From positions 1-37,957 of the forward strand of contig WOVA01000021.1 in NCBI GenBank assembly GCA_009773155.1: a stretch of 37,957 nucleotides of DNA, read 5' to 3'. How positions within the stretch are numbered: position 1 is the first letter of the stretch; each line of letters starts with the position of its first letter. Of the stretch, positions 3,446-25,580 are shown in pieces. Below the pieces are notes generated by a model. It searched no databases, had not been told where the DNA came from, and was given only the letters and a program-made list of their open reading frames with translations. The position numbers were made by a program, and so were the translations under genes. The DNA is from Elusimicrobiota bacterium. GTDB lineage: Bacteria; Elusimicrobiota; Elusimicrobia; Elusimicrobiales; UBA9959.

Positions 3446-3823
3446 ATGAGGAAGCTGACGGCCTTCGCGCTTTTTTTCTGCCTGCTCTCGGCGAGCACGC
3501 CCGCCGTCGTCCATGCCTTAGTACATGCGGTGGTCTCTTCCTCCGGGCATTCCCATGACGGCGGGGAGACCTCGCATCTGCATCATGGCGAAGAGCATCA
3601 CAGCTCCGGCCTTTGCCTGCTGCCTCCGGCCTTGAGCCGGCGCGACAGCGTTAAGGCGCCCGCCGGTGGCAAGACCGCCGTTCTCTGCCGCCTGGCCTCG
3701 CCCCCGGCGGATAGCTCCTGCGCCGACCCGATAGCGGTTCCGGACGGGAGTCCGCTGGGACGGTCCCGCAACGGAGTACTTCCCCAGTTAGCCAGTATCC
3801 CGCCTCCTTTCCCCGCTTCCTGA
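3446..3823 (+). CDS. His-rich exported small protein
   Basis: A 125-residue protein not assigned to a named family. It begins with MRKLTAFALFFCLLSASTPA, a convincing Sec signal peptide, followed by a His-rich stretch (GHSHDGGETSHLHHGEEHHSS) of the kind that binds Ni, Co, Zn or Cu in the periplasm, then Cys residues in GLCLLPP, VLCRL and SSCADP and a low-complexity Pro/Ser tail. It lies just upstream of a HupE/UreJ-like gene on the same strand, so a metal-chelating or metal-delivery role is a reasonable inference. The start is uncertain only in mechanism: no ribosome binding site is visible, and a -10-like hexamer lies immediately upstream. The C-terminal third is low complexity and may be poorly conserved. 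Confidence 0.6.
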   Translation: MRKLTAFALFFCLLSASTPAVVHALVHAVVSSSGHSHDGGETSHLHHGEEHHSSGLCLLPPALSRRDSVKAPAGGKTAVLCRLASPPADSSCADPIAVPDGSPLGRSRNGVLPQLASIPPPFPAS

Positions 3824-3901
3824 TATCTGCCCCGAGGCCCGGGCCCAAGGGCCGGCGCGGGGGCTCTTCCAAAAACAAAGTTCCGCCATGCCTGGCGGCA
3901 C

Positions 3902-3946
3902 TATCCCGGCGGCGCCCGCTTTGGGGGCGGCCGGGGACGCGGGATA
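3902..3946 (+). promoter_or_regulatory. Inverted repeat in the hupE-like leader
   Basis: TATCCCG at 3902-3908 is matched by CGGGATA at 3940-3946, with a GC-rich, partly self-complementary interior. A second small stem (CCGCC/GGCGG near 3880-3896) precedes it. The structure ends 18 nt before the start codon and could be a leader hairpin or a terminator-like element. It matches no riboswitch consensus I recognise. Confidence 0.3.
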
Positions 3947-3964
3947 AATACAAGGGAAATTTTA

Positions 3965-4699
3965 ATGGATAAAAAACACATCGAACCCGGCGGCCGGCGC
4001 GGCTTTGACAAAGCGCTGGTCCGCCTGGGGCTGTTCGCGGCGCTGGCCGCTTTCTTCTGCCTGGTCCCCGAGGCGGGCGCGCACGGCGTGACCGACGGCG
4101 ACAGGGGCTATATACAGGAAAGCTCCGGCGTCCTTACCATGCCGTTCATCTACCTGGGCGCCAAGCACATGGTGACCGGCTACGACCACCTGCTGTTCCT
4201 GGTGGGCGTGGTCTTCTTCCTGTACCGCTTCAGGGACGTGGGTATCTACGTCAGCCTGTTCGCGGTCGGGCATACGGTCACGCTGTTGACGGGGACCCTG
4301 CTGAAGATCAGCGTCAGCGCCTACCTCATCGACGCCATCATAGGCTTCTCCATAGTCTATAAAGCGCTCGATAACATGGGCGCGTACAAGAGGTGGTTCG
4401 GCTTCCAGCCGGATACCAAGATCGCCACGCTGGTCTTCGGCCTGTTCCACGGCTTCGGCCTCGCCACCAAGATACTGGACTACAAGGTGTCGCCTGACGG
4501 GCTGCTGGCCAACCTTATCTCGTTCAATGTCGGCGTGGAACTGGGACAGCTGATGGGCCTGGCAATGATCCTCATCGCCATGGGCTTCTGGCGGCGCTCG
4601 GGCAACTTCATGCGGCACGCCTACGCGGCGCAGGTGGTCCTGATGACCGGCGGCTTCCTGCTGGTGGGCTACCAGCTTACCGGTTATTTCGTCTCGTGA
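3965..4699 (+). CDS. HupE/UreJ-family membrane protein
   Basis: A 244-residue membrane protein. After an N-terminal hydrophobic segment ending in EAGAHG come the signatures of the HupE/UreJ-2 family: YLGAKHMVTGYDHLLFLVGV, FAVGHTVTLLTG, and LVFGLFHGFGLATKI, with conserved His and Asp residues in transmembrane helices. Related proteins are nickel or cobalt permeases or accessory proteins in hydrogenase and urease clusters; no such enzymes are in this window. RBS AAGGGAA precedes the ATG. The following gene encodes a membrane-anchored protein that I recall often travelling with this HupE subfamily. The metal specificity is inferred, not shown. Confidence 0.8.
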   Translation: MDKKHIEPGGRRGFDKALVRLGLFAALAAFFCLVPEAGAHGVTDGDRGYIQESSGVLTMPFIYLGAKHMVTGYDHLLFLVGVVFFLYRFRDVGIYVSLFAVGHTVTLLTGTLLKISVSAYLIDAIIGFSIVYKALDNMGAYKRWFGFQPDTKIATLVFGLFHGFGLATKILDYKVSPDGLLANLISFNVGVELGQLMGLAMILIAMGFWRRSGNFMRHAYAAQVVLMTGGFLLVGYQLTGYFVS

Positions 4700-4727
4700 C
4701 CCTTCACGGTAAATCAAGGAGAATATC

Positions 4728-5330
4728 ATGTACAACGCTAACTTCCCTCATAAATCCGAACTTCCTTCCACGGCAAAGCTGATAAAATCGACCGTTATAG
4801 CCGCCGTCTCGGCCCTGGTTATCCTGGTCACGGTGGTCATGCCGGCCGAGTACGGCCTGGACCCCACCGGGATCGGCGGCCTGCTGGGCCTGAAAAAAAT
4901 GGGCGAGATAAAAATGTCCCTGGCGCGCGAAGCCGCCGCCGGGCCCGCCGACCCTGAAGTGCGGGCGGCCCCCGCGGCCGTCCCCGCGAAGGCCCCGTCC
5001 GCCGGGGAGGTGCGCACCGATGAAATGAGCTTAACTCTGGCCCCTGACCAGGGCGAAGAAATTAAGCTGGCGCTGGCTAAGGGCAAAAAAGCGAAATACA
5101 CCTGGACCAGCAGCGGCGGCCGGGCCAACTACGACGTGCACGGCGATTCCAAAGAACTGGGCATAAAATATCACGGCTACGGCAAAGGCTCGGAGAAAAC
5201 CGCTTCGGGCGTACTCACGGCGGCTTTCGACGGACATCACGGCTGGTTCTGGCGCAACCGCACCGGCGCCGCCATTACCGTGACCCTGAAAGTCACCGGC
5301 GAGCATACCGGGCTGAAGCACGTGAACTGA
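4728..5330 (+). CDS. Membrane-anchored HupE-associated protein
   Basis: A 200-residue protein with one transmembrane helix near residues 20-40 (KSTVIAAVSALVILVTVVMP), an Ala/Pro-rich linker, and a soluble C-terminal domain (about 100-195) containing LTLAPDQGEEIKLALAKGKKAKYTWTSS, NYDVHGDSKE and FDGHHGWFWRN. This is the layout of proteins annotated as transmembrane anchor protein in other Gram-negatives next to HupE/UreJ-like genes. Start ATG 4728 is supported by AAGGAGAA. It follows the hupE-like gene by 28 nt, so the two are probably co-transcribed. The soluble domain would face the periplasm; the paired His and Trp residues suggest ligand or metal contact but this is unproven. Confidence 0.65.
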   Translation: MYNANFPHKSELPSTAKLIKSTVIAAVSALVILVTVVMPAEYGLDPTGIGGLLGLKKMGEIKMSLAREAAAGPADPEVRAAPAAVPAKAPSAGEVRTDEMSLTLAPDQGEEIKLALAKGKKAKYTWTSSGGRANYDVHGDSKELGIKYHGYGKGSEKTASGVLTAAFDGHHGWFWRNRTGAAITVTLKVTGEHTGLKHVN

Positions 5331-5386
5331 GGACAGCCTCGCTCCCCTTCCGGCGGCAGCCCGCCGCCGGGGGGCGGTTCAAATGG

Positions 5387-5392
5387 TAAAAT
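5387..5392 (+). promoter_or_regulatory. Extended -10 element, leaderless start of methyltransferase gene
   Basis: TGG-TAAAAT: an extended -10 (TGn) whose hexamer ends 7 nt before ATG 5400, without a Shine-Dalgarno motif. The 5' end of the mRNA would fall at or next to the start codon. A GC-rich inverted repeat just before it (around 5351-5377) could terminate the preceding operon. Confidence 0.45.
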
Positions 5393-5399
5393 TGCGTTG

Positions 5400-6077
5400 A
5401 TGGAGTCCGACACCCTCAGGGTTTACGACCAGGCTGCCGCCGCTTACGACGCGGAGCCTAACTCCGTGCTGTTCACGGAGACAGCCGCCGTACTGGCGCT
5501 GCTGGACCTCCGGAAAGGCGACGCGCTGCTGGACGCGGCCTGCGGCACCGGGAAATACGTGCGGGAGGGGCTCAAAGGCGGCGCGGACTGCGTCGGGCTG
5601 GATTTTTCCCGGGAGATGCTGGCGCTGGCCGCCGCCAAATGCCCCGGCGCGCGTTTCGTGAGGCATGACCTGATGTCTCCGCCGCTGCCCTTCGCCGGCG
5701 GGGCTTTCGGGAAAATAATCCTGGCCCACGCGCTCTGGCACCTGGCCGGCGTCGCCGCGCTCTTCGCCGAGTTCGCGCGCCTGCTCGGGCCGGGCGGCCG
5801 GCTGGTGGTTACGGTAACTCACCCGGAGGCGGCCTTCAAGCGCTTTGAGTACAGGCGGGAGGACTGCCCGGGCGGCGACGAGATAGATATAAGCAAGGAG
5901 AGGCGCCGCTATACCCTCGGGGAGATAACTGCCGCGGCGCTCTCGGCCGGCCTGCGCCCCGCCGCCGCCGAGACCATACAGGTGGACGAGCGCCTGCGCC
6001 CCGTCCTGACCGAAGAGTCTTACGCGCGGGTGCGGGGAACCCCGCTGATCCTGGCGCTGCGCTTCGATAAGCCATGA
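5400..6077 (+). CDS. Class I SAM-dependent methyltransferase
   Basis: A 225-residue Rossmann-fold methyltransferase. Motif I is LLDAACGTGKYV (residues ~43-54), the acidic ribose-binding residue follows in CVGLDFSREML, motif II is FVRHDLMSPPLPF, and motif III with LGPGGRLVVTVTHPE is typical of the Methyltransf_11/UbiE group. The ATG at 5400 is chosen over the TTG directly before it. The stop overlaps the start of the next gene by four bases (ATGA), so the two are translationally coupled. The substrate is not predictable from sequence. Confidence 0.8.
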   Translation: MESDTLRVYDQAAAAYDAEPNSVLFTETAAVLALLDLRKGDALLDAACGTGKYVREGLKGGADCVGLDFSREMLALAAAKCPGARFVRHDLMSPPLPFAGGAFGKIILAHALWHLAGVAALFAEFARLLGPGGRLVVTVTHPEAAFKRFEYRREDCPGGDEIDISKERRRYTLGEITAAALSAGLRPAAAETIQVDERLRPVLTEESYARVRGTPLILALRFDKP

Positions 6078-16955: not shown

Positions 16956-17006
16956 ATTGGGGACACAATACCTATTTCCGCCGGAAATAGGTATTGTGTC
17001 CCCAAT
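16956..17006. repeat. REP-like hairpin copy 3
   Basis: Left arm 16959-16978, loop CGCCG, right arm 16984-17003. Pairing extends to ATT/AAT on the outside. It lies between the leftward DUF948-like operon and the rightward yjbQ gene. Confidence 0.95.
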
Positions 17007-17030: not shown

Positions 17031-17423
17031 ATGAAGAAGATACAGGTGAAAACGGCCAAGTCGGAGTTTAATGACATAACAGGTCTTGTGCAGGAGGCGG
17101 TGACGGAAGCGGGGTTGGAGGACGGGGTCTGCCACCTGTTCTGCCCGCACACCACCTGCGCGCTGGCGATAAACGAGAACGCCGACCCTTCCGTGAAGAG
17201 CGACGTCCTGGCGGGGCTGGCCAAGGTGATCGACGACGCTTACCCGTACCGCCACGGGGAGGGGAACTCCCCCGCGCATATCAAGAGCGTGCTGACCGGG
17301 CCCTCTTTGACGGTCTTCGTCGAGGGAGGGAGGTTGCAGTTGGGTACGTGGCAGGGCCTCTACCTGTGCGAGTACGACGGCCCCCGCTCCCGCCAGGTCT
17401 GGCTCAAGACCTCGCCGGTATAA
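17031..17423 (+). CDS. yjbQ: YjbQ/UPF0047 family protein
   Basis: A 130-residue single-domain protein of the YjbQ (UPF0047) family, sometimes annotated as secondary thiamine-phosphate synthase because the E. coli protein has weak activity of that kind; its real role is unknown. Family signatures are CPHTTCALAINENADP (residues 38-53, with H40, T42 and E49), YRHGEGNSPAHIKS and GTWQGLYLCEYDGPRSRQVW. It ends convergently with, and overlaps by 20 nt, the RAYT gene on the other strand, so the RAYT end lies right against the host gene. Confidence 0.93.
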   Translation: MKKIQVKTAKSEFNDITGLVQEAVTEAGLEDGVCHLFCPHTTCALAINENADPSVKSDVLAGLAKVIDDAYPYRHGEGNSPAHIKSVLTGPSLTVFVEGGRLQLGTWQGLYLCEYDGPRSRQVWLKTSPV

Positions 17424-18090
17424 GTTCACCTTCCCGGTCGGTACCCTTGCGGCCCGCCGGCCGCGGGAAAAGCTGCCGGCCGGTGAGCAGTTCCGCCCGG
17501 CTTATGAATTCTGGCGCCCCGGCGGGGCGGCCGGTGCGGGAATGATGTCTTAGTTCTTCAGCGGAATCCGGGTCATTTTTCAGCATTTTCATCCATTCAT
17601 CCGGGGATATCCCCGCTATCTTTTTATCGACGAGCGGATCGCAGGACGCCGCCCCCGCGTGGAACGCGGCGCTGGACCATTGATACCCCCAGGCCTGGCG
17701 GCAGATCCCGGCCCTGACCGGGTTTCTTTCCGTGTATAGGGCGGCCGTGACAAAATACCGCTCGTCCGTCGGGCAGGAATAGAATCGCCCCTGGAACAGG
17801 TACCCGCGGACATCTTCCCGCAAATTAACTTCACGCGTGTATTTACGGTGCGCCTCCCCTATGGCTCTGGCCAGTGAATCCCCGCTTTCGGGGACCGCGA
17901 CAATGTGCACATGGTTGGACATCAGGCAATAGGCCAGGAATTCGACGCCGTACTTTTTACCGTTCGCCTTCAGCAGGTTAAGGTATTTTCTCCGGTCAGC
18001 GTCGTTCAAAAAGACCTGCATCGACCGCACCCCCCGCTGCGTTATATGGTGCGGGCACTGCGGAATCACCACCCTCGCGATCCTTGGCAT
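17404..18090 (-). CDS. REP-associated tyrosine transposase (RAYT, Y1/HUH)
   Basis: A 228-residue single-strand transposase of the TnpA-REP/IS200-like group. The HUH metal site is H60-V-H62 in LMSNHVHIVAVP, and the probable nucleophile is the Tyr of LYTERNPVRAG (Y119). GRFYSCPTDERYF, WSSAAFH and the C-terminal LTGRQLFPRPAGRKGTDRE are typical of RAYTs. The ATG at 18090 has GGGAGGAGG four bases upstream; an in-frame ATG at 18108 lacks this support. RAYTs act on REP palindromes as single strands rather than moving as classical IS elements. The intact frame and nine near-identical hairpins suggest recent activity. The gene is visibly less GC-rich than its neighbours. Confidence 0.92.
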   Translation of the reverse strand: MPRIARVVIPQCPHHITQRGVRSMQVFLNDADRRKYLNLLKANGKKYGVEFLAYCLMSNHVHIVAVPESGDSLARAIGEAHRKYTREVNLREDVRGYLFQGRFYSCPTDERYFVTAALYTERNPVRAGICRQAWGYQWSSAAFHAGAASCDPLVDKKIAGISPDEWMKMLKNDPDSAEELRHHSRTGRPAGAPEFISRAELLTGRQLFPRPAGRKGTDREGELIPARS

Positions 18091-18106
18091 AAAACCTCCT
18101 CCCGAC

Positions 18107-18165
18107 AATAAGCATTATGTCCCCAAAAAGTGTAGACGGCGGGGGCGACAACGTGGTGTCGGGGG
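18107..18165 (-). repeat. Second repeat family, copy A (upstream of the RAYT gene)
   Basis: A decayed right arm (ATTATGTCCCC, 18114-18124) is followed by AAAAAGTGTAGA and GCGACAACGT-G-GTGTCG (to 18161). The latter contains a CGACA/TGTCG inverted repeat. Over 32 aligned bases (18130-18161 against 34985-35016) it matches the sequence ahead of the DUF1016 gene at about 27 positions. It is oriented the same way to both genes and lies 10-15 nt from a complete hairpin in both places. On the minus strand TTGTCG could act as a -35 box. Confidence 0.7.
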
Positions 18166-18262: not shown

Positions 18263-21079
18263 ATGGACACCAAGAATACAGACTACTCTAAGACCGTTTT
18301 CCTGCCCAATACCTCGTTCTCCATGAGGGGCGACCTGCCAAAGAAGGAGCCGGGCATTCTTGATTTCTGGAACAAGCTGGACCTTTACAAGCGGATGCTC
18401 GAGCTGCGCAAGGACTGCAAGCCGTATATCCTCCACGACGGGCCGCCCTACGCCAACGGCCACATCCACATCGGCCACGCCCTCAACAAGATCCTCAAGG
18501 ACATACTGGTCAAGTCGCAGTCTCTGATGGGCCATTACACGCCTTATGTCCCCGGCTGGGACTGCCACGGCCTGCCCATCGAGCAGGCGCTGCTCAAGGA
18601 GATGAAGATCGGCAAGCGCCACATCGACGACGTCGCCGGATTCCGCGGCAAAGCGCGCGAGTTCGCGCAGCGCTTCATCGACATACAGCGCGCGGAATTC
18701 AGGCGCCTGGGCGTGCTGGGCGACTGGGACAACCCGTACGTCACGATGTCCAACCGCTACGAAGGCACCGTCATAAAGGCGTTCCGCGAGCTGCTGGAGA
18801 AGGGCTATATCCGCCGCGACAAGAAGGCCATCTACTGGTGCGTCAGCTGCGAGACCGCCCTGGCCGACGCCGAGGTGGAGTACAAGGACAAGACCTCCCC
18901 GTCGGTGTACGTCAAGTTCACGCTGCTGGCCCCGCCCGCCGCGATGAAGTCCGGCGGCGGGCCCGTCAGCCTGGTGGCCTGGACCACCACGCCCTGGACG
19001 CTGCCGTCCAACATGGCCGCGGCCGTCGCGCAGGACGAGGACTACTCCGTCCTGGAGTCGGCGGGGGAATACCTCGTCGTCGCCAGCAAGCTCGCCGAGA
19101 GCTTCGCGCAGGAATCCGGCCTTAAGCTCTCAAAGCACGCCGAGCTCTCCGGCAAGGATCTGCTGGGCCTCGAATACGCCCACTGCCTCGCCCCGCACCT
19201 GCCCGAGCGCCGCCGCTTCGGCCGCCCGGTCGTCGCCGCCGACTTCGTCGAGATGGCCACCGGCACCGGCATAGTCCACATCGCGCCCGGCCACGGCGAG
19301 GACGACTTCCACCTCGGCAAAAAGCTGGGCCTCGACATCTTCTGCCCCGTCAAAGAGGACGGCACCTTCAGCGCCGACGCCGGCGCCTTCGAGGGGAAAA
19401 AGGTCTTCGAGTCCAACAAGGACATCGTGGAGACGATGAAGGACGACGGCGTCCTGCTGGCCCACAAGGACATCGGCCACAGCTACCCGCACTGCTGGCG
19501 CTGCAAGCAGCCGGTCATCTTCCGCGCCACCGAGCAGTGGTTCCTGCGCGTGGACGAGCACGGCCTGCGCGAAAAGCTGGTCGAAGCCGCCGACCGCGTC
19601 GCCTGGTACCCGTCGGGCGGCAAGACGCGCATGACCTCCATGCTCAAGCTCCGCCCCGACTGGTGCCTCTCGCGCCAGCGCTACTGGGGCACGCCCATCC
19701 TGGCGCTCTACTGCAAGTCCTGCGAGAAGCCGCAGACCGACTCCGCCCTGCTCAAGACCTGGGAGGAGCGCGTGTTCAAGGAGGGAAGCGATTTCTGGTT
19801 CAGCCAGCCCGTCGAGAAGCTGCTGCCCGCGGGATATAAGTGCTCCTGCGGCGGCGCGGAGTTCCGCAAGGAGAAGGACATCCTCGACGTGTGGCTGGAT
19901 TCGGGCGTCTCCTGGTACGCCGTCGCCCGCAGCGGCCACATCCCCGGCGGCGACCATTATCCCGCCGATATGTACCTGGAAGGCTCCGACCAGCACCGCG
20001 GCTGGTTCCAGACCTCGCTCATCCCGTCGGTGGCGCTCAACGGCAAGCCGCCCTACCGCGCCGTGCTGACCCACGGTATGGTCCTCGACGAGACCGGCCA
20101 CGCCATGCACAAGTCCGCCGGCAACAGCGTCTCGCCGCAGGAGATCATGAAGAAGTACGGCGCCGAGGTCCTGCGCCTCTGGACCGCGCTCTGCGACTAT
20201 TCCGACGACGTCCGCATCGGCGAGAAGCTGCTGGCCGGCCCGATAGACACCTACCGCAAGATCCGCAACACGCTGCGCTACCTGATGGGCAACCTGAGCG
20301 ACTTCCGGCCCGCCGAACACCGCGTGGCCGACGGAGACATGACGGAGCTGGACCGCTATTTCCGCCACCGCCTGGCGCTGATGCTGGAAAAGACCCGCAA
20401 GGCCTACAATGAGTACGAGTTCCGCCACGCCATCCGCGCGATAGCCGACTTCTGCATCCTCGACCTGTCGTCGTTCTACCTGGACGCGCTCAAGGACCGG
20501 CTCTACACGCTCTCGCCCGACGATCCGTCCCGCCGCTCCGCCCAGACCGCGCTCTACGACGCGCTGGTCACCATACTGCCGCTGACCGCGCCGGTGCTCT
20601 CGTTCACGACCGAAGAGGCCTGGGGCGTGGCCCGCGCCGAGATAGACCCCTCGCTGCCCGAGAGCGTCTTCCTCTCCGCCATTCCGCAGCAGGCGCCGGC
20701 CGCCTGGAAGGACGAAGCCCTGGCGGCGAAGTGGGACAAACTGATGGAACTGCGCGAGCCCGCGTTGAAGGCCATCGAGGAACTCCGCCAGAAGGGGGAG
20801 GTCGGCTCGTCGCTGGAGGCCCGCCTGGTATTCAGGACCTCCGACCCCGCGCTGGCCGGCCTTATAGAATCCGCGCTGCCCGCGCTGCCGCAGTTCATGA
20901 TAGTCTCCGGCTGCTCGCTGGACCGCGGCGGCCCGGCGGAACTCTCCGTTTCGGCGCTCAAGGCCGAAGGCGCCAAGTGCCCGCGCTGCTGGCAGTGGCG
21001 CAAGGACATAGGCTCCGAACCGGCGCACGCCGGGGTATGCGGTCGCTGTGCTAACGTACTCAAGAAGGCGGGTGCCTGA
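18263..21079 (+). CDS. ileS: Isoleucyl-tRNA synthetase
   Basis: A 938-residue class I synthetase that charges tRNA-Ile. The HIGH motif is in PPYANGHIHIGHALNK (H69-I-G-H72), and the CP1 editing domain shows AWTTTPWTLPSNMA and GTGIVHIAPGHGEDDF. WCLSRQRYWGTPI and SDQHRGWFQTSLI follow. The KMSKS loop reads AMHKSAGNSV (residues ~614-623), a variant with His instead of Ser at the second position. A C-terminal zinc finger is present (CPRCWQW...CGRCANVL). Length and layout fit the bacterial zinc-containing type. The gene is followed by lspA with overlap or a very short gap, a common arrangement in bacteria. Confidence 0.97.
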   Translation: MDTKNTDYSKTVFLPNTSFSMRGDLPKKEPGILDFWNKLDLYKRMLELRKDCKPYILHDGPPYANGHIHIGHALNKILKDILVKSQSLMGHYTPYVPGWDCHGLPIEQALLKEMKIGKRHIDDVAGFRGKAREFAQRFIDIQRAEFRRLGVLGDWDNPYVTMSNRYEGTVIKAFRELLEKGYIRRDKKAIYWCVSCETALADAEVEYKDKTSPSVYVKFTLLAPPAAMKSGGGPVSLVAWTTTPWTLPSNMAAAVAQDEDYSVLESAGEYLVVASKLAESFAQESGLKLSKHAELSGKDLLGLEYAHCLAPHLPERRRFGRPVVAADFVEMATGTGIVHIAPGHGEDDFHLGKKLGLDIFCPVKEDGTFSADAGAFEGKKVFESNKDIVETMKDDGVLLAHKDIGHSYPHCWRCKQPVIFRATEQWFLRVDEHGLREKLVEAADRVAWYPSGGKTRMTSMLKLRPDWCLSRQRYWGTPILALYCKSCEKPQTDSALLKTWEERVFKEGSDFWFSQPVEKLLPAGYKCSCGGAEFRKEKDILDVWLDSGVSWYAVARSGHIPGGDHYPADMYLEGSDQHRGWFQTSLIPSVALNGKPPYRAVLTHGMVLDETGHAMHKSAGNSVSPQEIMKKYGAEVLRLWTALCDYSDDVRIGEKLLAGPIDTYRKIRNTLRYLMGNLSDFRPAEHRVADGDMTELDRYFRHRLALMLEKTRKAYNEYEFRHAIRAIADFCILDLSSFYLDALKDRLYTLSPDDPSRRSAQTALYDALVTILPLTAPVLSFTTEEAWGVARAEIDPSLPESVFLSAIPQQAPAAWKDEALAAKWDKLMELREPALKAIEELRQKGEVGSSLEARLVFRTSDPALAGLIESALPALPQFMIVSGCSLDRGGPAELSVSALKAEGAKCPRCWQWRKDIGSEPAHAGVCGRCANVLKKAGA

Positions 21080-21089
21080 CCTGAAAAAG

Positions 21090-21551
21090 ATGAGCGCCCG
21101 CAAATTCCTCAGCCCGGCCATAGTGCTCTCGGTGTTCCTGCTCGACAGGGTCACCAAGGGGCTGGTGCTGGAGAAACTCTACTTCTCCAGCATGCAGGTG
21201 CTGCCGTTCTTCAACCTGCACTACGTCGAGAACACCGGCGTCTCGTTCGGCATGTTCCGCGACAACAATTCGTTCTTCATCGTCTTCTCCGCGGTCTTGA
21301 TCTGCGCCCTGCTGATCTTCCGGCGGCGGCTGGTCTCCCACGGCGCCGCGGCCGAGGCCGGCGCCGCTCTGGTGCTGGGCGGCGCGCTGGGCAACCTCTA
21401 TGACCGCATCGCCTACGGGCACGTGGTGGATTTCATCGATCTCAGTTTCTTCCCCGCGGTCTTCAACGTGGCCGACGCCTCCATCACCGTCGGGGCCGTC
21501 TTCCTGGCCTTCGGCATGAAGGACGAAAAAAAGGCGCCCCGGGGCGCCTGA
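21090..21551 (+). CDS. lspA: Signal peptidase II
   Basis: Prolipoprotein signal peptidase, 153 residues from ATG 21090 (159 from the GTG at 21072, which overlaps the ileS stop and has AAGAAGG upstream). Four hydrophobic helices are visible. The conserved boxes are LHYVENTGVSFGMF, GALGNLYDRIAYGHVVDFIDL and FNVADASITVG; the Asp residues in VVDF and NVAD are the catalytic pair. It cleaves lipoprotein signal peptides in the inner membrane; several proteins in this window carry lipoboxes. The 3' end of the gene is a perfect 16-bp palindrome (21533-21548) that can form a hairpin in the mRNA. Confidence 0.96.
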   Translation: MSARKFLSPAIVLSVFLLDRVTKGLVLEKLYFSSMQVLPFFNLHYVENTGVSFGMFRDNNSFFIVFSAVLICALLIFRRRLVSHGAAAEAGAALVLGGALGNLYDRIAYGHVVDFIDLSFFPAVFNVADASITVGAVFLAFGMKDEKKAPRGA

Positions 21552-21600: not shown

Positions 21601-22539
21601 ATGGCACTCGCAAGGAACATCGTCATAGCTTCGCTGGCCCTGGCCGCGCTGGCCGCCTGCGGCCGCGACCCGGACGCCTTCTACCGGCGGGGGAACCTGG
21701 CCTACTCGCGCGGCGAGACAATGAAGGCCATCGGGCTCTACACCCGCTCGCTGATGCTCAAGAAAAAATTCCCCGAGGCCCTCACTTCGCGCGGCCTCGC
21801 CTACGAGCGCATAAGGGACACGGGCAAGGCCGAGAACGACTATAAGAAGGCCATCGACATGGACCCCTCCTACGCGCCCGCCTACAATAACCTCGGCGCG
21901 CTCTACCTGGACGCCGGCAATTACACCCAGGCGGAGAAATATCTGGACCTCGCCCTGAAGAAGAGCTCCGAGTATCCCCACGCCCTGCTCAACCGCGGCA
22001 TCGTCGCCCTCAAGACGCAGGACGCCGTCGGCGCCATACGGTTACTCTCCCGCGCCATCGACCTCAAGCCTGACCTGGCGCTGGTCTGGTTCCAGCGCGC
22101 GCTGGCCTACGGCGAACTGCGCCGCTGGTCCGAGGCCGTCTACGACCTGGACGAGTTCATCAAACTGCAGCCCCGCGTGGCGCAGGCCTGGTTCGACCGC
22201 GGGCGGCTTAAGTTCCACTCCGGCGACACCGTCGGGGCGATAGCGGATCTCAACAAGGCGGTGGAACTGCGGCCCGGCGTCTCCGCCTACCATTACTGGC
22301 GCGGCGTGGCCGTCTACCGGACCGGCTACAGGGAAGGGGCGCTGGAGGACGCCGTGAAGGCCTATACGCTCGACAACGGCAACGCCCGCGCGCGCGTGCT
22401 GGCCGGCGACATCCGCGCGGCCGACGGCGACGTGCGCGGCGCCCTGGACGAGTACGAGTACGCTGCCGAGGCCGACCCCGCCCGCTCCGAGTTCTACGCG
22501 AAGAGGGCACAGGAGCTGTTCAAGAAGAGGAGCCGCTGA
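21601..22539 (+). CDS. TPR lipoprotein
   Basis: 312 residues. The signal peptide ends in LAALAAC, a lipobox, so the mature protein is anchored by Cys20. The rest is made of about eight tandem TPR units (for example RGNLAYSRGETMKAIGLYTRSLML, AYNNLGALYLDAGNYTQAEKYLDLAL, WFDRGRLKFHSGDTVGAIADLNKAVEL), giving a superhelical protein-binding surface in the periplasm, on either membrane. ATG 21601 has GGAGGGATAAC upstream. Its stop overlaps the start of the following gene (TGATG), indicating coupled translation. Partner unknown; the neighbouring GT-C/LmeA fusion is the best candidate. Confidence 0.85.
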   Translation: MALARNIVIASLALAALAACGRDPDAFYRRGNLAYSRGETMKAIGLYTRSLMLKKKFPEALTSRGLAYERIRDTGKAENDYKKAIDMDPSYAPAYNNLGALYLDAGNYTQAEKYLDLALKKSSEYPHALLNRGIVALKTQDAVGAIRLLSRAIDLKPDLALVWFQRALAYGELRRWSEAVYDLDEFIKLQPRVAQAWFDRGRLKFHSGDTVGAIADLNKAVELRPGVSAYHYWRGVAVYRTGYREGALEDAVKAYTLDNGNARARVLAGDIRAADGDVRGALDEYEYAAEADPARSEFYAKRAQELFKKRSR

Positions 22540-24686
22540 TGAGCCCCGAGCAGGAGCACGAAGTAACTTTCAAGAACAAGTTCTACGCGGCCAGAATGGC
22601 CTTCGAGAGCATCCTCTTCGAGAAGGAACTCTCCGGACCGAAGAAAGAGGACTGGAAGAAAGGCCCGCTGGGCCTGGCCGTCCTCATACTCATCAGCGCC
22701 CTTTTTCTCTGGCAGTGGAAGGCCCGCCAGGGCGACCTCTTCAGCGCCGAGGAGGCCGGCCGCGTCACCGTCGTGCAGAAGTATCTGGCCGATTACGAGG
22801 TCGAAGGCCCCGTCGCCCTGCTGGGCACCGGCTCCGTCGGCGTAACCGCGCAGCCGCCGCTCTATTACCTGAGCTACCTGCCGGTGCTTAAATTAGTCAC
22901 CGCCGATATCGGCACCGCCGTCTTCCTGGTCAACGCCTTTTACCTGTCGCTGCTGCTGGCCTTCGTCTACTACGCCCTGCGGCGCCACCGCAACACCCTC
23001 TCCTCGCTGACGGCGGCGGTCGCGGCCGCCTCGTTCCCGTTCGTGCTGGAATGCGCGCGCTCGCTCTCGCCGCAGATAGCCACGCTGGCCTTCGCCGCCG
23101 GCTTCTGGTGCTTCTACCTCAATTCCGACGATTTCGAAAAGCCCAAGCCGCTGTTCTGGATGGGGCTTATGTTCTCGCTGGGCGTGCTGACCGACGTTTT
23201 CTACTGGGTCTATGTCCTGCCGCTGCTGCCCATGATGATCGCCGTCGCGGCGGGCCACATGAACCGCTCGGAGATGCTCAAGGGCCTGCTGCCCGGCATA
23301 GTCGCCGGCGTGCCGTGGTACCTGATGAACGCCGTCTCCTTCTACAACGCCTGGCTCGCGCGCTCCATGGCCGGGGCCGACCTGTCGCGCTGGGATAAGT
23401 TCTGGTGGCTGCTCAAGGCCTCCGCCGGCGAGATGCACCTGCTCTTCTTCGTGCTGGGCGCCGCCGCCATGCTCTGGATGTACTATTCCGTCTTCATGCC
23501 TTACCAGGGCAAGGAGAAGATCGCCCTCTGGTTCGTCGTGCCGTACCTCTTCTTCACGCTGCTGGGCCTGCGCGAGGTGGAGTATATGTACCCCGCGCTG
23601 CTGCCCTTCGCCATAGCGCTGGGCGTCATGGTCCCGGGGAAACTGCGCTACCCCGCGGGCGCGCTGGCCGCCGTGCTGATGCTCATAAACGGCTCGGGCC
23701 TGGTCGGCGTAAAGTATCTGCCCGGCGTGAAGCAGGCTCCCATCTTCGGCGGCACCGTCGTGGTCCGCGGGGGGGACTTCTCGGAGAAGTTACTCTCCGC
23801 CGTGCGCCCCGCCGCCGGGGGCCGCAGCTCGTCGGTCGTCTGCCTGGTGGGCGGCGGCGATTATCTCAACCCCGACACTATCGGCATCATGCTCGCCCGC
23901 CGCGGCCTAACCGGCGTGAAAGTAGTGAATTCCGGCGCGGACCTGGCCTCGTTCTGCGACGTGCTGGCGCTTACGCCGTCCGCCTCGCCCGAGGCCGCCG
24001 CCGCCACGGCACGCATACGCGCCGCCTCCTGGCTGGGACCGGCTTTCGAGCGGGCCGAGTCCATCTCGCTGCCGGCCGGCGACACCGAACTTTATTATAA
24101 GCGCCGCGTCCTGCCCTTCGACCAGGGCAGCGGCGTCTTTAGATACGCCTCGCTCTCCATCGGCGGCCTCACGCTGCGCGACGTGGTGATAAGGGTGGGA
24201 GACCTGGACCCCTCCTCCGGCCGCTATCCCAAGGCCGATATCTCGTCCTCCTACGCCTCCTACGGCGAGATGGACATACACGGCTTCTCGGCCACGGCCG
24301 CCAACTTCTCCTACGCCCTCGAGGACGGCATGCCCGTGATCATCGCCGCCTCGCCGGTGCGCCTGACCGGCGGCAAGATCACCGACTTCTCCGTCGCCCG
24401 CTTTCTCGAGAAGAGAGGCTTCCCGCTCAAGGACCTGGAGGTCAGGTTCGGCGACGGCATGATCGTATCCGGCACGATGGGAGGCAAGCCCGTCGAGGCC
24501 GAGCTGAATGTGGAGCTCAAGGGCCGCAAACTGGTGGTCACGCCGCGCACGGTGAGCTATGGCGAGACCAACTTCGATCCCAGGTACATACCGCTGCTCA
24601 GATATTCGCTGGACCTCGACGATCTGCCGCTCGACATCCGGCTGAACTCGCTCACCATACGCGCCTCGCTGGCCGAGATAAGCTGA
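22539..24686 (+). CDS. GT-C-like glycosyltransferase fused to a DUF2993/LmeA-like domain
   Basis: A 715-residue protein with two parts. Residues ~45-395 contain about ten hydrophobic helices arranged as in ArnT/PMT-type GT-C glycosyltransferases, including a first-loop acidic pair (FSAEEAGR), QPPLYYLSYLPVL (compare the Q-P-PLYY pattern of the family) and EVEYMYPALLPFAIALG near the end of the membrane part. These enzymes use polyprenyl-phosphate sugars. After a linker, residues ~530-715 resemble DUF2993/LmeA lipid-binding domains: SIGGLTLRDVVIRV, FLEKRGFPLKDLEVRFGDGMIVSGTMGGKPVEAE and KGRKLVVTPRTVSYG. I do not recall this fusion. The domain calls are by eye and moderately certain. Confidence 0.65.
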   Translation: MSPEQEHEVTFKNKFYAARMAFESILFEKELSGPKKEDWKKGPLGLAVLILISALFLWQWKARQGDLFSAEEAGRVTVVQKYLADYEVEGPVALLGTGSVGVTAQPPLYYLSYLPVLKLVTADIGTAVFLVNAFYLSLLLAFVYYALRRHRNTLSSLTAAVAAASFPFVLECARSLSPQIATLAFAAGFWCFYLNSDDFEKPKPLFWMGLMFSLGVLTDVFYWVYVLPLLPMMIAVAAGHMNRSEMLKGLLPGIVAGVPWYLMNAVSFYNAWLARSMAGADLSRWDKFWWLLKASAGEMHLLFFVLGAAAMLWMYYSVFMPYQGKEKIALWFVVPYLFFTLLGLREVEYMYPALLPFAIALGVMVPGKLRYPAGALAAVLMLINGSGLVGVKYLPGVKQAPIFGGTVVVRGGDFSEKLLSAVRPAAGGRSSSVVCLVGGGDYLNPDTIGIMLARRGLTGVKVVNSGADLASFCDVLALTPSASPEAAAATARIRAASWLGPAFERAESISLPAGDTELYYKRRVLPFDQGSGVFRYASLSIGGLTLRDVVIRVGDLDPSSGRYPKADISSSYASYGEMDIHGFSATAANFSYALEDGMPVIIAASPVRLTGGKITDFSVARFLEKRGFPLKDLEVRFGDGMIVSGTMGGKPVEAELNVELKGRKLVVTPRTVSYGETNFDPRYIPLLRYSLDLDDLPLDIRLNSLTIRASLAEIS

Positions 24687-24690
24687 GACC

Positions 24691-25515
24691 ATGAAAAAAC
24701 ACCTCCCGCTTCTCCCCGCGCTGCTCATACTCTCCGCCTGCGTCTCGCTGCCGGACGAAGTACTCCGCCAGCACATGCTGGCGGCGCCCGTGCCGGACCA
24801 GGCCCCCTACGGTGAGCTGGACCCAGGCTCCAAATCCGTCGAGACCTCGCGTTTCCTGGTGCGGGCCTACTCCACCGAGACCGCGCAGACCTATGCGACC
24901 TTCTGCGAGGACAGCTACACCCGCCTGATGAGCGACCTGGGCCTCTATTCCTTCGCCCCGTCGGCCCCGTACAATATCGTCGTCTACGCCGGCAAGGACG
25001 AGTACCTGGCCAAGACCAAACAGCCGGAGTGGTCCGGCGGCGTGGCCTACGGCAACGCCATCCACGTCTACGAGAACGACGCCGCCCGCGGCGTTATCGC
25101 CCACGAGATAGCCCACCTGGTCTTCAAGGAATTCATGGGGGGCACCGATTTTTCCCAGCTCACCTGGCTCAACGAGGGAATAGCTGTGCACGCCGAGAAA
25201 GCCGCGCTGCCGGCCTCGGCCGACCTCTACGCCGCCCGCGTCAAGTCGCTGGTCCGCCCCTCGCCTCTCTCTTTTACCGCGCTGACCTCCATGCCGCCCG
25301 GCGCCCGGCAGACCGGCTCCGCCGTCGAGAAATGGTACGCGCAGGCCGGCAGCCTGGCCACCTTCATGATACGCGCCGGGGGGAACTTCAACTTCTACCT
25401 TTTCCTGCGCAAACTCAAGGAAGGGCTGCCCGTGGATTACGCGGTAGGGGAAGCCTTCGCCGGCACCTGGCGCGACATGTCGGACGTGCACGCCGCCTGG
25501 CGAGCCAGCCTGTGA
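24691..25515 (+). CDS. Peptidase MA-like metalloprotease lipoprotein
   Basis: A 274-residue lipoprotein (signal MKKHLPLLPALLILSAC, lipobox LSAC). The zinc site is HEIAHLVF (HExxH) in the middle of the protein, followed 20-30 residues later by WLNEGIAVHAEK, where the Glu is the third ligand, as in the gluzincin peptidase MA-like family. Flanking segments (YNIVVYAGKDEYLAKT, WYAQAGSLATFMI and FYLFLRKLKEG) fit that family. It starts 4 nt after the preceding stop, so it belongs to the ileS-lspA-TPR-GT run. It would work in the periplasm on an unknown substrate. Hairpin copy 5 follows 20 nt after the stop. Confidence 0.8.
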   Translation: MKKHLPLLPALLILSACVSLPDEVLRQHMLAAPVPDQAPYGELDPGSKSVETSRFLVRAYSTETAQTYATFCEDSYTRLMSDLGLYSFAPSAPYNIVVYAGKDEYLAKTKQPEWSGGVAYGNAIHVYENDAARGVIAHEIAHLVFKEFMGGTDFSQLTWLNEGIAVHAEKAALPASADLYAARVKSLVRPSPLSFTALTSMPPGARQTGSAVEKWYAQAGSLATFMIRAGGNFNFYLFLRKLKEGLPVDYAVGEAFAGTWRDMSDVHAAWRASL

Positions 25516-25535: not shown

Positions 25536-25580
25536 GGGGACACAATACCTATTTCCCGCGGAAATAGGTATTGTGTCCCC
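25536..25580. repeat. REP-like hairpin copy 5
   Basis: Left arm 25536-25555, loop CCGCG, right arm 25561-25580. It is followed 27 nt later by a solitary right arm that holds the start codon of the next gene. Confidence 0.95.

Follow-up and report, generated by a model that had tools for sequence, protein, structure and literature searches.

Our study showed that one gene of an Elusimicrobiota bacterium encodes, in a single chain of 715 amino acids, a glycosyltransferase region of the GT-C class with an ArnT-like predicted fold and, behind it, a domain resembling LmeA (DUF2993). The gene lies at 22539-24686 of contig WOVA01000021.1 (assembly GCA_009773155.1), of which positions 1 to 37,957, called here the window, were analysed. 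Such a fusion had been proposed from the sequence alone, and it is real: one open reading frame spans these positions and both domain assignments hold. The gene is present in a single copy in its genome, and full-length copies occur in two genomes of the same genus, 86% and 65% identical (the 86% copy, L031, from an Elusimicrobiales bacterium, has the frame length and score of L002). We think it a little more probable than the contrary that the protein is a transferase for an envelope glycolipid, dependent on a polyprenyl-phosphate sugar, in which a TULIP-type domain, part of the same chain, handles the lipid acceptor. The gene and its parts are as follows.

22539..24686, forward strand: fusion open reading frame, 715 amino acids, ATG start, intact
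22653..24107, forward strand: ArnT-like GT-C region, residues 39-523 (AlphaFold model, VIA-align to 5f15, PMT_2)
24108..24683, forward strand: LmeA/DUF2993-like domain, residues 524-715 (PF11209 at 560-709; predicted alone with a local confidence, pLDDT, of 91.6)
24369..24683, forward strand: sub-region of residues 611-715, weakly superposed on the TULIP proteins BPI and YceB (Z 5.4 and 5.0, unrelated barrels tied at 4.7)
22749..22754, forward strand: codons of E71-E72, aligned to the Asp-Glu pair of ArnT after the first transmembrane segment (TM1)
23073..23075, forward strand: codon of Q179, aligned to the Asp of the second acidic site of ArnT (Asp in 20/20 aligned rows outside f1, the window's own family)

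Predicted fold and profile evidence

The GT-C assignment rests on a profile match and on the predicted structure. Pfam places PF13231 (PMT_2) at residues 116-248 with 26.5 bits (E 8.4e-6), just above its cut-off of 26.1, and the same family matches 40 of the 47 aligned proteins, the window's included. The AlphaFold model of the full protein, built from an alignment of these 47 rows, has a pLDDT of 89.3 and a predicted template modelling score of 0.88, and its best Foldseek matches in the PDB are the ArnT structures 5ezm (E 7.2e-7) and 5f15. ArnT, the undecaprenyl-phosphate-Ara4N (4-amino-4-deoxy-L-arabinose) : lipid A transferase, is presumably family GT83, and the best-matching structure is that of Cupriavidus metallidurans. 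VIA-align superposes the model on 5f15 with Z 28.6 and a root-mean-square deviation of 4.1 over 414 residues, followed by Pmt4 (25.1), Pmt1-Pmt2 (24.6) and OST (24.4). The several transmembrane segments and the periplasmic loop helices after TM1 that characterize a GT-C fold are thus found in the predicted structure, in agreement with the ArnT match and PMT_2. Since the superposition spans residues 39..523 of the model, these make up a complete ArnT-like unit, to which an alpha/beta region at about 396-522 belongs, and residues 524-715 are additional. The original prediction had taken residues 1-420 and 500-715 as the two pieces; the boundary lies closer to 523/524, and a complete ArnT-like fold at a pLDDT of 89 sustains the GT-C assignment.

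Sequence searches against the PDB were nearly empty: phmmer with the fusion protein returned one irrelevant match (Filamin-C, E 1.6), and hmmsearch with our A1 profile returned none at E<=1. The mapping of ArnT residues used below therefore rests on a MAFFT alignment with Escherichia coli ArnT and on the fold match. Among NCBIfam models no family matches the window's protein at E<=0.01; across the 47 aligned proteins TIGR03663 occurs in three (best E 8.4e-6), and one chance-like family in another.

For the C-terminal domain, PF11209 (LmeA) scores 18.5 bits (E 0.0022) when the full chain is searched and 22.6 bits (E 1.3e-4) with the C-terminal piece alone, both below the cut-off of 27.3. It is found at E<=0.01 in 23 of the 47 aligned proteins, again counting the window's, with a best E of 3.1e-14. 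A leave-clade-out profile was built from the C-terminal domains of 18 rows, excluding f1 and the row of its relative f2 (L057, which has no such domain, had been dropped beforehand), with cut points taken from the joint alignment and the database size set to 100,000. With this profile the window's domain scores 50.6 bits (E 1e-12) and shuffled sequences no more than 5.8 bits; 28/28 of the excluded domains are recovered at E<0.05, 27 of them at E<1e-3. This test rejects a chance LmeA match and shows the window's domain to be homologous to its counterparts in the relatives, which in 10/334 genomes exceed the LmeA cut-off.

The fold of this domain is less clear-cut. The four top VIA-align rows are CETP (5.5), BPI (5.4), a beta-carotene-binding protein (5.3), which we take to be another member of the TULIP superfamily, and YceB (5.0), with LBP at rank 20 (Z 4.0); the top superpositions lie mostly over the C-terminal half of the domain. 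This ranking of a predicted model is no more than suggestive of a TULIP-type fold. Levine's description of DUF2993 as a Chorein-N part followed by TULIP fits these matches (PMC6791001).

Distribution and genomic contexts of the fusion

The original prediction concerned one protein, and the same architecture turned out to recur widely in the phylum. Relatives of the fusion protein are found in 104/340 Elusimicrobiota genomes at E<=1e-5, and a profile of the C-terminal domain (A2, 43 rows taken from these same genomes) matches 107/334 at E<=0.001, nearly always as part of a fusion at the examined loci. There, with some genomes represented more than once, 95 frames have both parts, eight only the GT-C part and four only the LmeA-like part. 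The eight comprise one at a contig edge (L041), one with a weak domain match (L050; 17 bits, E 9e-4), one without the domain (L057) and five split or interrupted genes (L099; L075 and its copy L068; L074 and its copy L064). Three of the four LmeA-like-only frames lie at contig edges, the exception being L087 of genome G165. Two further loci were seen, one truncated by the contig end (G231) and one fused (G117). PF11209 itself is found in 29/334 genomes at E<=0.01, ten of them above the cut-off, and 25 of these 29 places fall within open frames of at least 700 residues; the shorter ones are in G002 (590), G230 (536), G133 (264, at a contig edge) and G113 (453, weak and apparently unrelated). 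The G113 match (contig C220, locus L102, E 0.007) was rejected as a fusion, neither of our profiles matching the locus. A scan with six peptide patterns of the fusion protein gave 12 loci, ten labelled Elusimicrobia, Elusimicrobiota or Elusimicrobiales and two just 'bacterium'.

Two loci show one part without the other. L057 (genome G245, of another class of the phylum) encodes at 3812-5845, on its forward strand, a 678-residue GT-C relative whose sequence gave no match to the LmeA-like domain; it may show the pre-fusion state. L087 encodes at 1264-2070, also on the forward strand, a short protein that has the LmeA-like domain behind a single hydrophobic segment and no GT-C part, beside a DUF3108 gene and an HldE-like kinase gene; this is the stand-alone LmeA arrangement, next to genes of the lipopolysaccharide (LPS) type. 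The LmeA-like domain seems to have been gained by an ArnT-like GT-C ancestor, probably early in its Elusimicrobiota class.

The neighbouring genes were surveyed at 39 loci outside f1 and f2 (genomes G181, G168, G203 and G214 counted twice; L087 and L057 included although each lacks one part), with seeds drawn from L046, L052, L054, L055, L056 and L078, which match themselves. Clusters for LPS core and lipid A surround the fusion at five loci (L052, L053, L054, L073 and L076) and are partial at L087 and L100, with a varying set of LpxK, LpxL, GT9, O-antigen ligase, GmhB-like, DUF3108, HldE-like and KdsB genes. L054 has LpxK, GT9, a Wzy_C O-antigen ligase, a GmhB-like phosphatase, DUF3108, an HldE-type kinase and KdsB, the last two above the cut-offs of TIGR02198 and TIGR00466, respectively; a lipid A acyltransferase was identified in L052. 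A sugar-1-phosphate nucleotidyltransferase, a phosphohexomutase, or both, are near the fusion at 16 of the 39 loci, and seven further loci have a match to a GT2 seed. Three GT2 neighbours were compared with models of polyprenyl-phosphate-sugar synthases, all scoring under the model cut-offs: L055 and L098 match PgfS at E 4.6e-86 and 1.8e-76 and ArnC at 2.8e-55 and 8.4e-46, and L056 matches ArnC at 2e-21.

Separately, the DUF3108 protein (PF11306, identified in L054 and seeded elsewhere) is a recurrent downstream neighbour, at all five cluster loci (L052, L053, L054, L073 and L076) and at L087 and L100. It is a candidate partner of the fusion or of its domain.

In some relatives the context, with lipid A or LPS-core genes and neighbours of the synthase type, is consistent with a polyprenyl-sugar transferase that acts on an envelope lipid. 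In the mechanism we propose, a cytoplasmic enzyme of the ArnC/PgfS type would load a sugar onto polyprenyl phosphate, and the donor would be flipped to the periplasmic face, where the GT-C part would transfer the sugar. The TULIP-type domain would lie on the same side, a periplasmic placement suggested by homology to ArnT. It would bind the acceptor, either LPS core-lipid A or some other glycolipid of the envelope, by its acyl part, and would keep it at the active site or hand it on. Holding or delivering a lipid acceptor is a plausible role for the last domain by analogy with LmeA and MptA (PMC7643837).

Active site, operon and competing explanations

In C. metallidurans ArnT the key residues are D55/E56 and D158, D55 being the catalytic Asp after TM1 and D158 the second Asp, in contact with the acceptor (PMC7801869). 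We counted the corresponding columns on the 47 aligned rows, 27 in f1 and 20 outside. Outside f1, column 71 is Asp in 17/20 rows (Gln in L043, His in L057, a gap in L063) and, as listed above, column 179 is Asp throughout. The ancestral family resembles an ArnT-type transferase that carries its own lipid-binding domain and acts on an envelope glycolipid. The f1 rows form one clade (SH-aLRT, the approximate likelihood-ratio support, 98), as does f1 with the f2 row (97); the tree was a quick one and contains several long branches. L043, the f2 relative, has Q71/E72 and retains Asp179. This pattern fits a single remodelling of the active site in the window's lineage, where the acceptor or the chemistry may be different. 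An acid could come back into place if the register of the loop were shifted by one residue.

Several observations weigh against our assignment. Neither acidic site of the window's protein has the canonical Asp, the residues being E71, E72 and Q179; Ala occupies column 71 in 18 of the 27 f1 rows; and Asp is rare at column 179 of f1 (Glu 12, Gln 4, Arg 3, Gly 3, Asp 2, Ser 2, other 1). None of 12 LPS, sugar-nucleotide and GT2 seeds matches the window at E<=1e-3, and at the 46 f1 and f2 loci checked with them the sole match was a fragment of a nucleotidyltransferase gene at the edge of L058. Outside f1 and f2, nine of the 39 loci have no seeded neighbour, L086 and L091 being at contig edges. Foldseek with the C-terminal domain model returned nothing at E<=0.001, and its TULIP match is weak, the unrelated barrels shwanavidin and FABP5 (both Z 4.7) being tied with the best score. 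LpxC is encoded in the window's genome (E 2.3e-74); being present in 314/334 genomes, it was discarded as a non-discriminating phylogenetic-profile test. The polyprenyl-sugar transferase of the original prediction fits the contexts of part of the relatives, and is less secure for the window's protein, whose acidic sites are altered. With Q179 in place of the second Asp we do not class this protein as an ArnT, and its own catalysis is uncertain.

The surroundings of the gene in f1 differ from those described above. They follow the order LspA, TPR, fusion, Peptidase_MA and P-type ATPase, and the f2 locus L043 has TPR, fusion, peptidase and ATPase (the seed names IleS, ThrS and CopA were read from translations, and LspA is backed by TIGR00077). 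In the window these neighbours are:

21048..21551, forward strand: LspA, lipoprotein signal peptidase (TIGR00077, 99.5 bits, cut-off 73.95)
21601..22539, forward strand: TPR protein, 312 amino acids, lipobox ALAAC (neighbour in 30/30 f1 loci, L001-L030, the window's included)
24691..25515, forward strand: Peptidase_MA_2-like protein, lipobox LSAC (PF13485, 47.9 bits; neighbour in 29/30 of these loci, the sequence of L015 ending first)

The stop codon of the TPR gene shares its A with the ATG of the fusion gene (TGATG, an overlap of 1 nt). From this overlap a complex of the two products had been suggested; the coupling is sustained by the overlap itself, by all 30 f1 loci and by L043, whereas the TPR seed has no match at the 39 loci outside f1 and f2. 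A general complex is thus unsupported, and we rejected it.

These differences suggest an alternative for the window's family, in which the GT-C part has ceased to act as a transferase and serves as a membrane anchor, or as a scaffold binding polyprenyl lipids, for the LmeA-like domain, in lipoprotein or lipid traffic linked to the LspA operon. The loss of the canonical acids coincides with the LspA-TPR-peptidase operon in the single f1 clade, and the lack of LPS and GT2 seed matches in the window raises this alternative while lowering our assignment. L043 already has the TPR, peptidase and ATPase neighbours, with Asp179 kept and Q71/E72. Yet 25/27 f1 rows have Asp or Glu at column 72, which could act through the one-residue shift, and the transmembrane GT-C part is the most constrained region of the protein. 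In two within-genus comparisons, against L002 and L003, the ratio of nonsynonymous to synonymous substitution rates (dN/dS; Nei-Gojobori, own script) is 0.153 and 0.263 for this part versus 0.322 and 0.392 for the LmeA-like part, which makes decay unlikely. We consider a scaffold unlikely, while giving it some weight. The position of the gene after LspA and between two lipobox genes, an order kept in f1, would also suit a PMT-like protein O-glycosyltransferase modifying exported lipoproteins, with the LmeA-like domain binding their lipid moiety. Pmt4 is indeed the next structural match after ArnT, and the Pfam names PMT_2 and PMT point the same way, but ArnT outscores Pmt4 and covers the alpha/beta region as well, and LPS, sugar-nucleotide or GT2 neighbours occur at 30 of the 39 loci outside f1 and f2; this explanation seems to us improbable. 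More improbable still is that the LmeA-like domain merely stabilizes or spaces a periplasmic GT-C enzyme and binds no acceptor. The effect measured for LmeA in mycobacteria does include the level of the MptA protein (PMC7643837), and the TULIP superposition is weak. Against it, Mycobacterium smegmatis LmeA binds phospholipid (PMC7643837), and the domain encoded alone at L087, among genes of the LPS type, is unexplained by a mere spacer.

Elsewhere in the window, palindromes built on GGGGACACAATACCTATT and resembling repetitive extragenic palindromic elements have 19 matches (at most two mismatches) between 9419 and 35071, mostly as head-to-head pairs (for example 25536-25580 and 16959-17003). 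Of the 43 exact copies of GGGGACACAATACCTATT in the genome, 16 lie on C45, the contig of the window; the sequence also occurs in L031 and L032, which resemble the same genus. The palindromes surround a Y1_Tnp gene (17404-18108, reverse strand), presumably RAYT-like.

Known systems and the handling of lipid acceptors

Among known enzymes ArnT is the closest in structure: the likeness covers its entire fold, the acid motif is retained in relatives outside f1, and ArnC/PgfS-type GT2 genes lie beside some of them. The fusion differs by its extra LmeA-like domain (E. coli ArnT has 550 residues) and, in the window's family, by altered acids. ArnC-like GT2 seeds have no match in the window, and no search was aimed at other arn genes.

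The parallel for the last domain comes from mycobacteria and the mannosyltransferase MptA, which we take to be of the GT-C class. LmeA is there a periplasmic TULIP protein that maintains MptA under stress, and the authors of that work raise, as a speculation, a coupling between mannan elongation and the transfer of lipid (PMC7643837). The domain studied here resembles LmeA in its profile match, in its weak TULIP superposition and in this functional tie to a GT-C enzyme, but it is the C-terminal part of a transferase, not a stand-alone domain behind one transmembrane or signal segment. By analogy, the union of both functions in one chain argues for direct contact between LmeA and MptA. A stronger proposal is that the family is self-contained in presenting its acceptor, the TULIP domain lifting a lipid-anchored acceptor and holding it during transfer by its own GT-C domain, so that the fusion would be a Rosetta stone for that contact in mycobacteria. 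The lack of LPS seed matches in the window lowers this proposal too, and we hold it tentatively, as rather doubtful.

The original prediction knew of no described protein joining these parts, and in the available portions of the literature on DUF2993, LmeA and MptA, TULIP-glycosyltransferases, and GT-C enzymes including ArnT we likewise found no description of a GT-C and LmeA-like fusion. Both kinds of joining have precedents. GT136 ORF12, like other GT-C enzymes with extra periplasmic domains, adds an extracytoplasmic domain to a GT-C core, but one that is a carbohydrate-binding module rather than lipid-binding (PMC11127046). ClaspCone-1 joins a predicted enzyme, a Lipocone domain, to a TULIP domain presumed to present a lipid, with no GT-C glycosyltransferase (PMC12419801). 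The novelty therefore lies in the combination.

These results bear on the way in which bulky lipid acceptors reach GT-C enzymes, and on the role of LmeA-type lipid-binding proteins beside a GT-C mannosyltransferase. Both questions become testable with a natural covalent fusion that is class-wide and, in some lineages, lies within lipid A clusters, since one protein can be compared with and without its last domain. The recurrence of this pairing across one phylum hints at how such enzymes handle their lipid targets.

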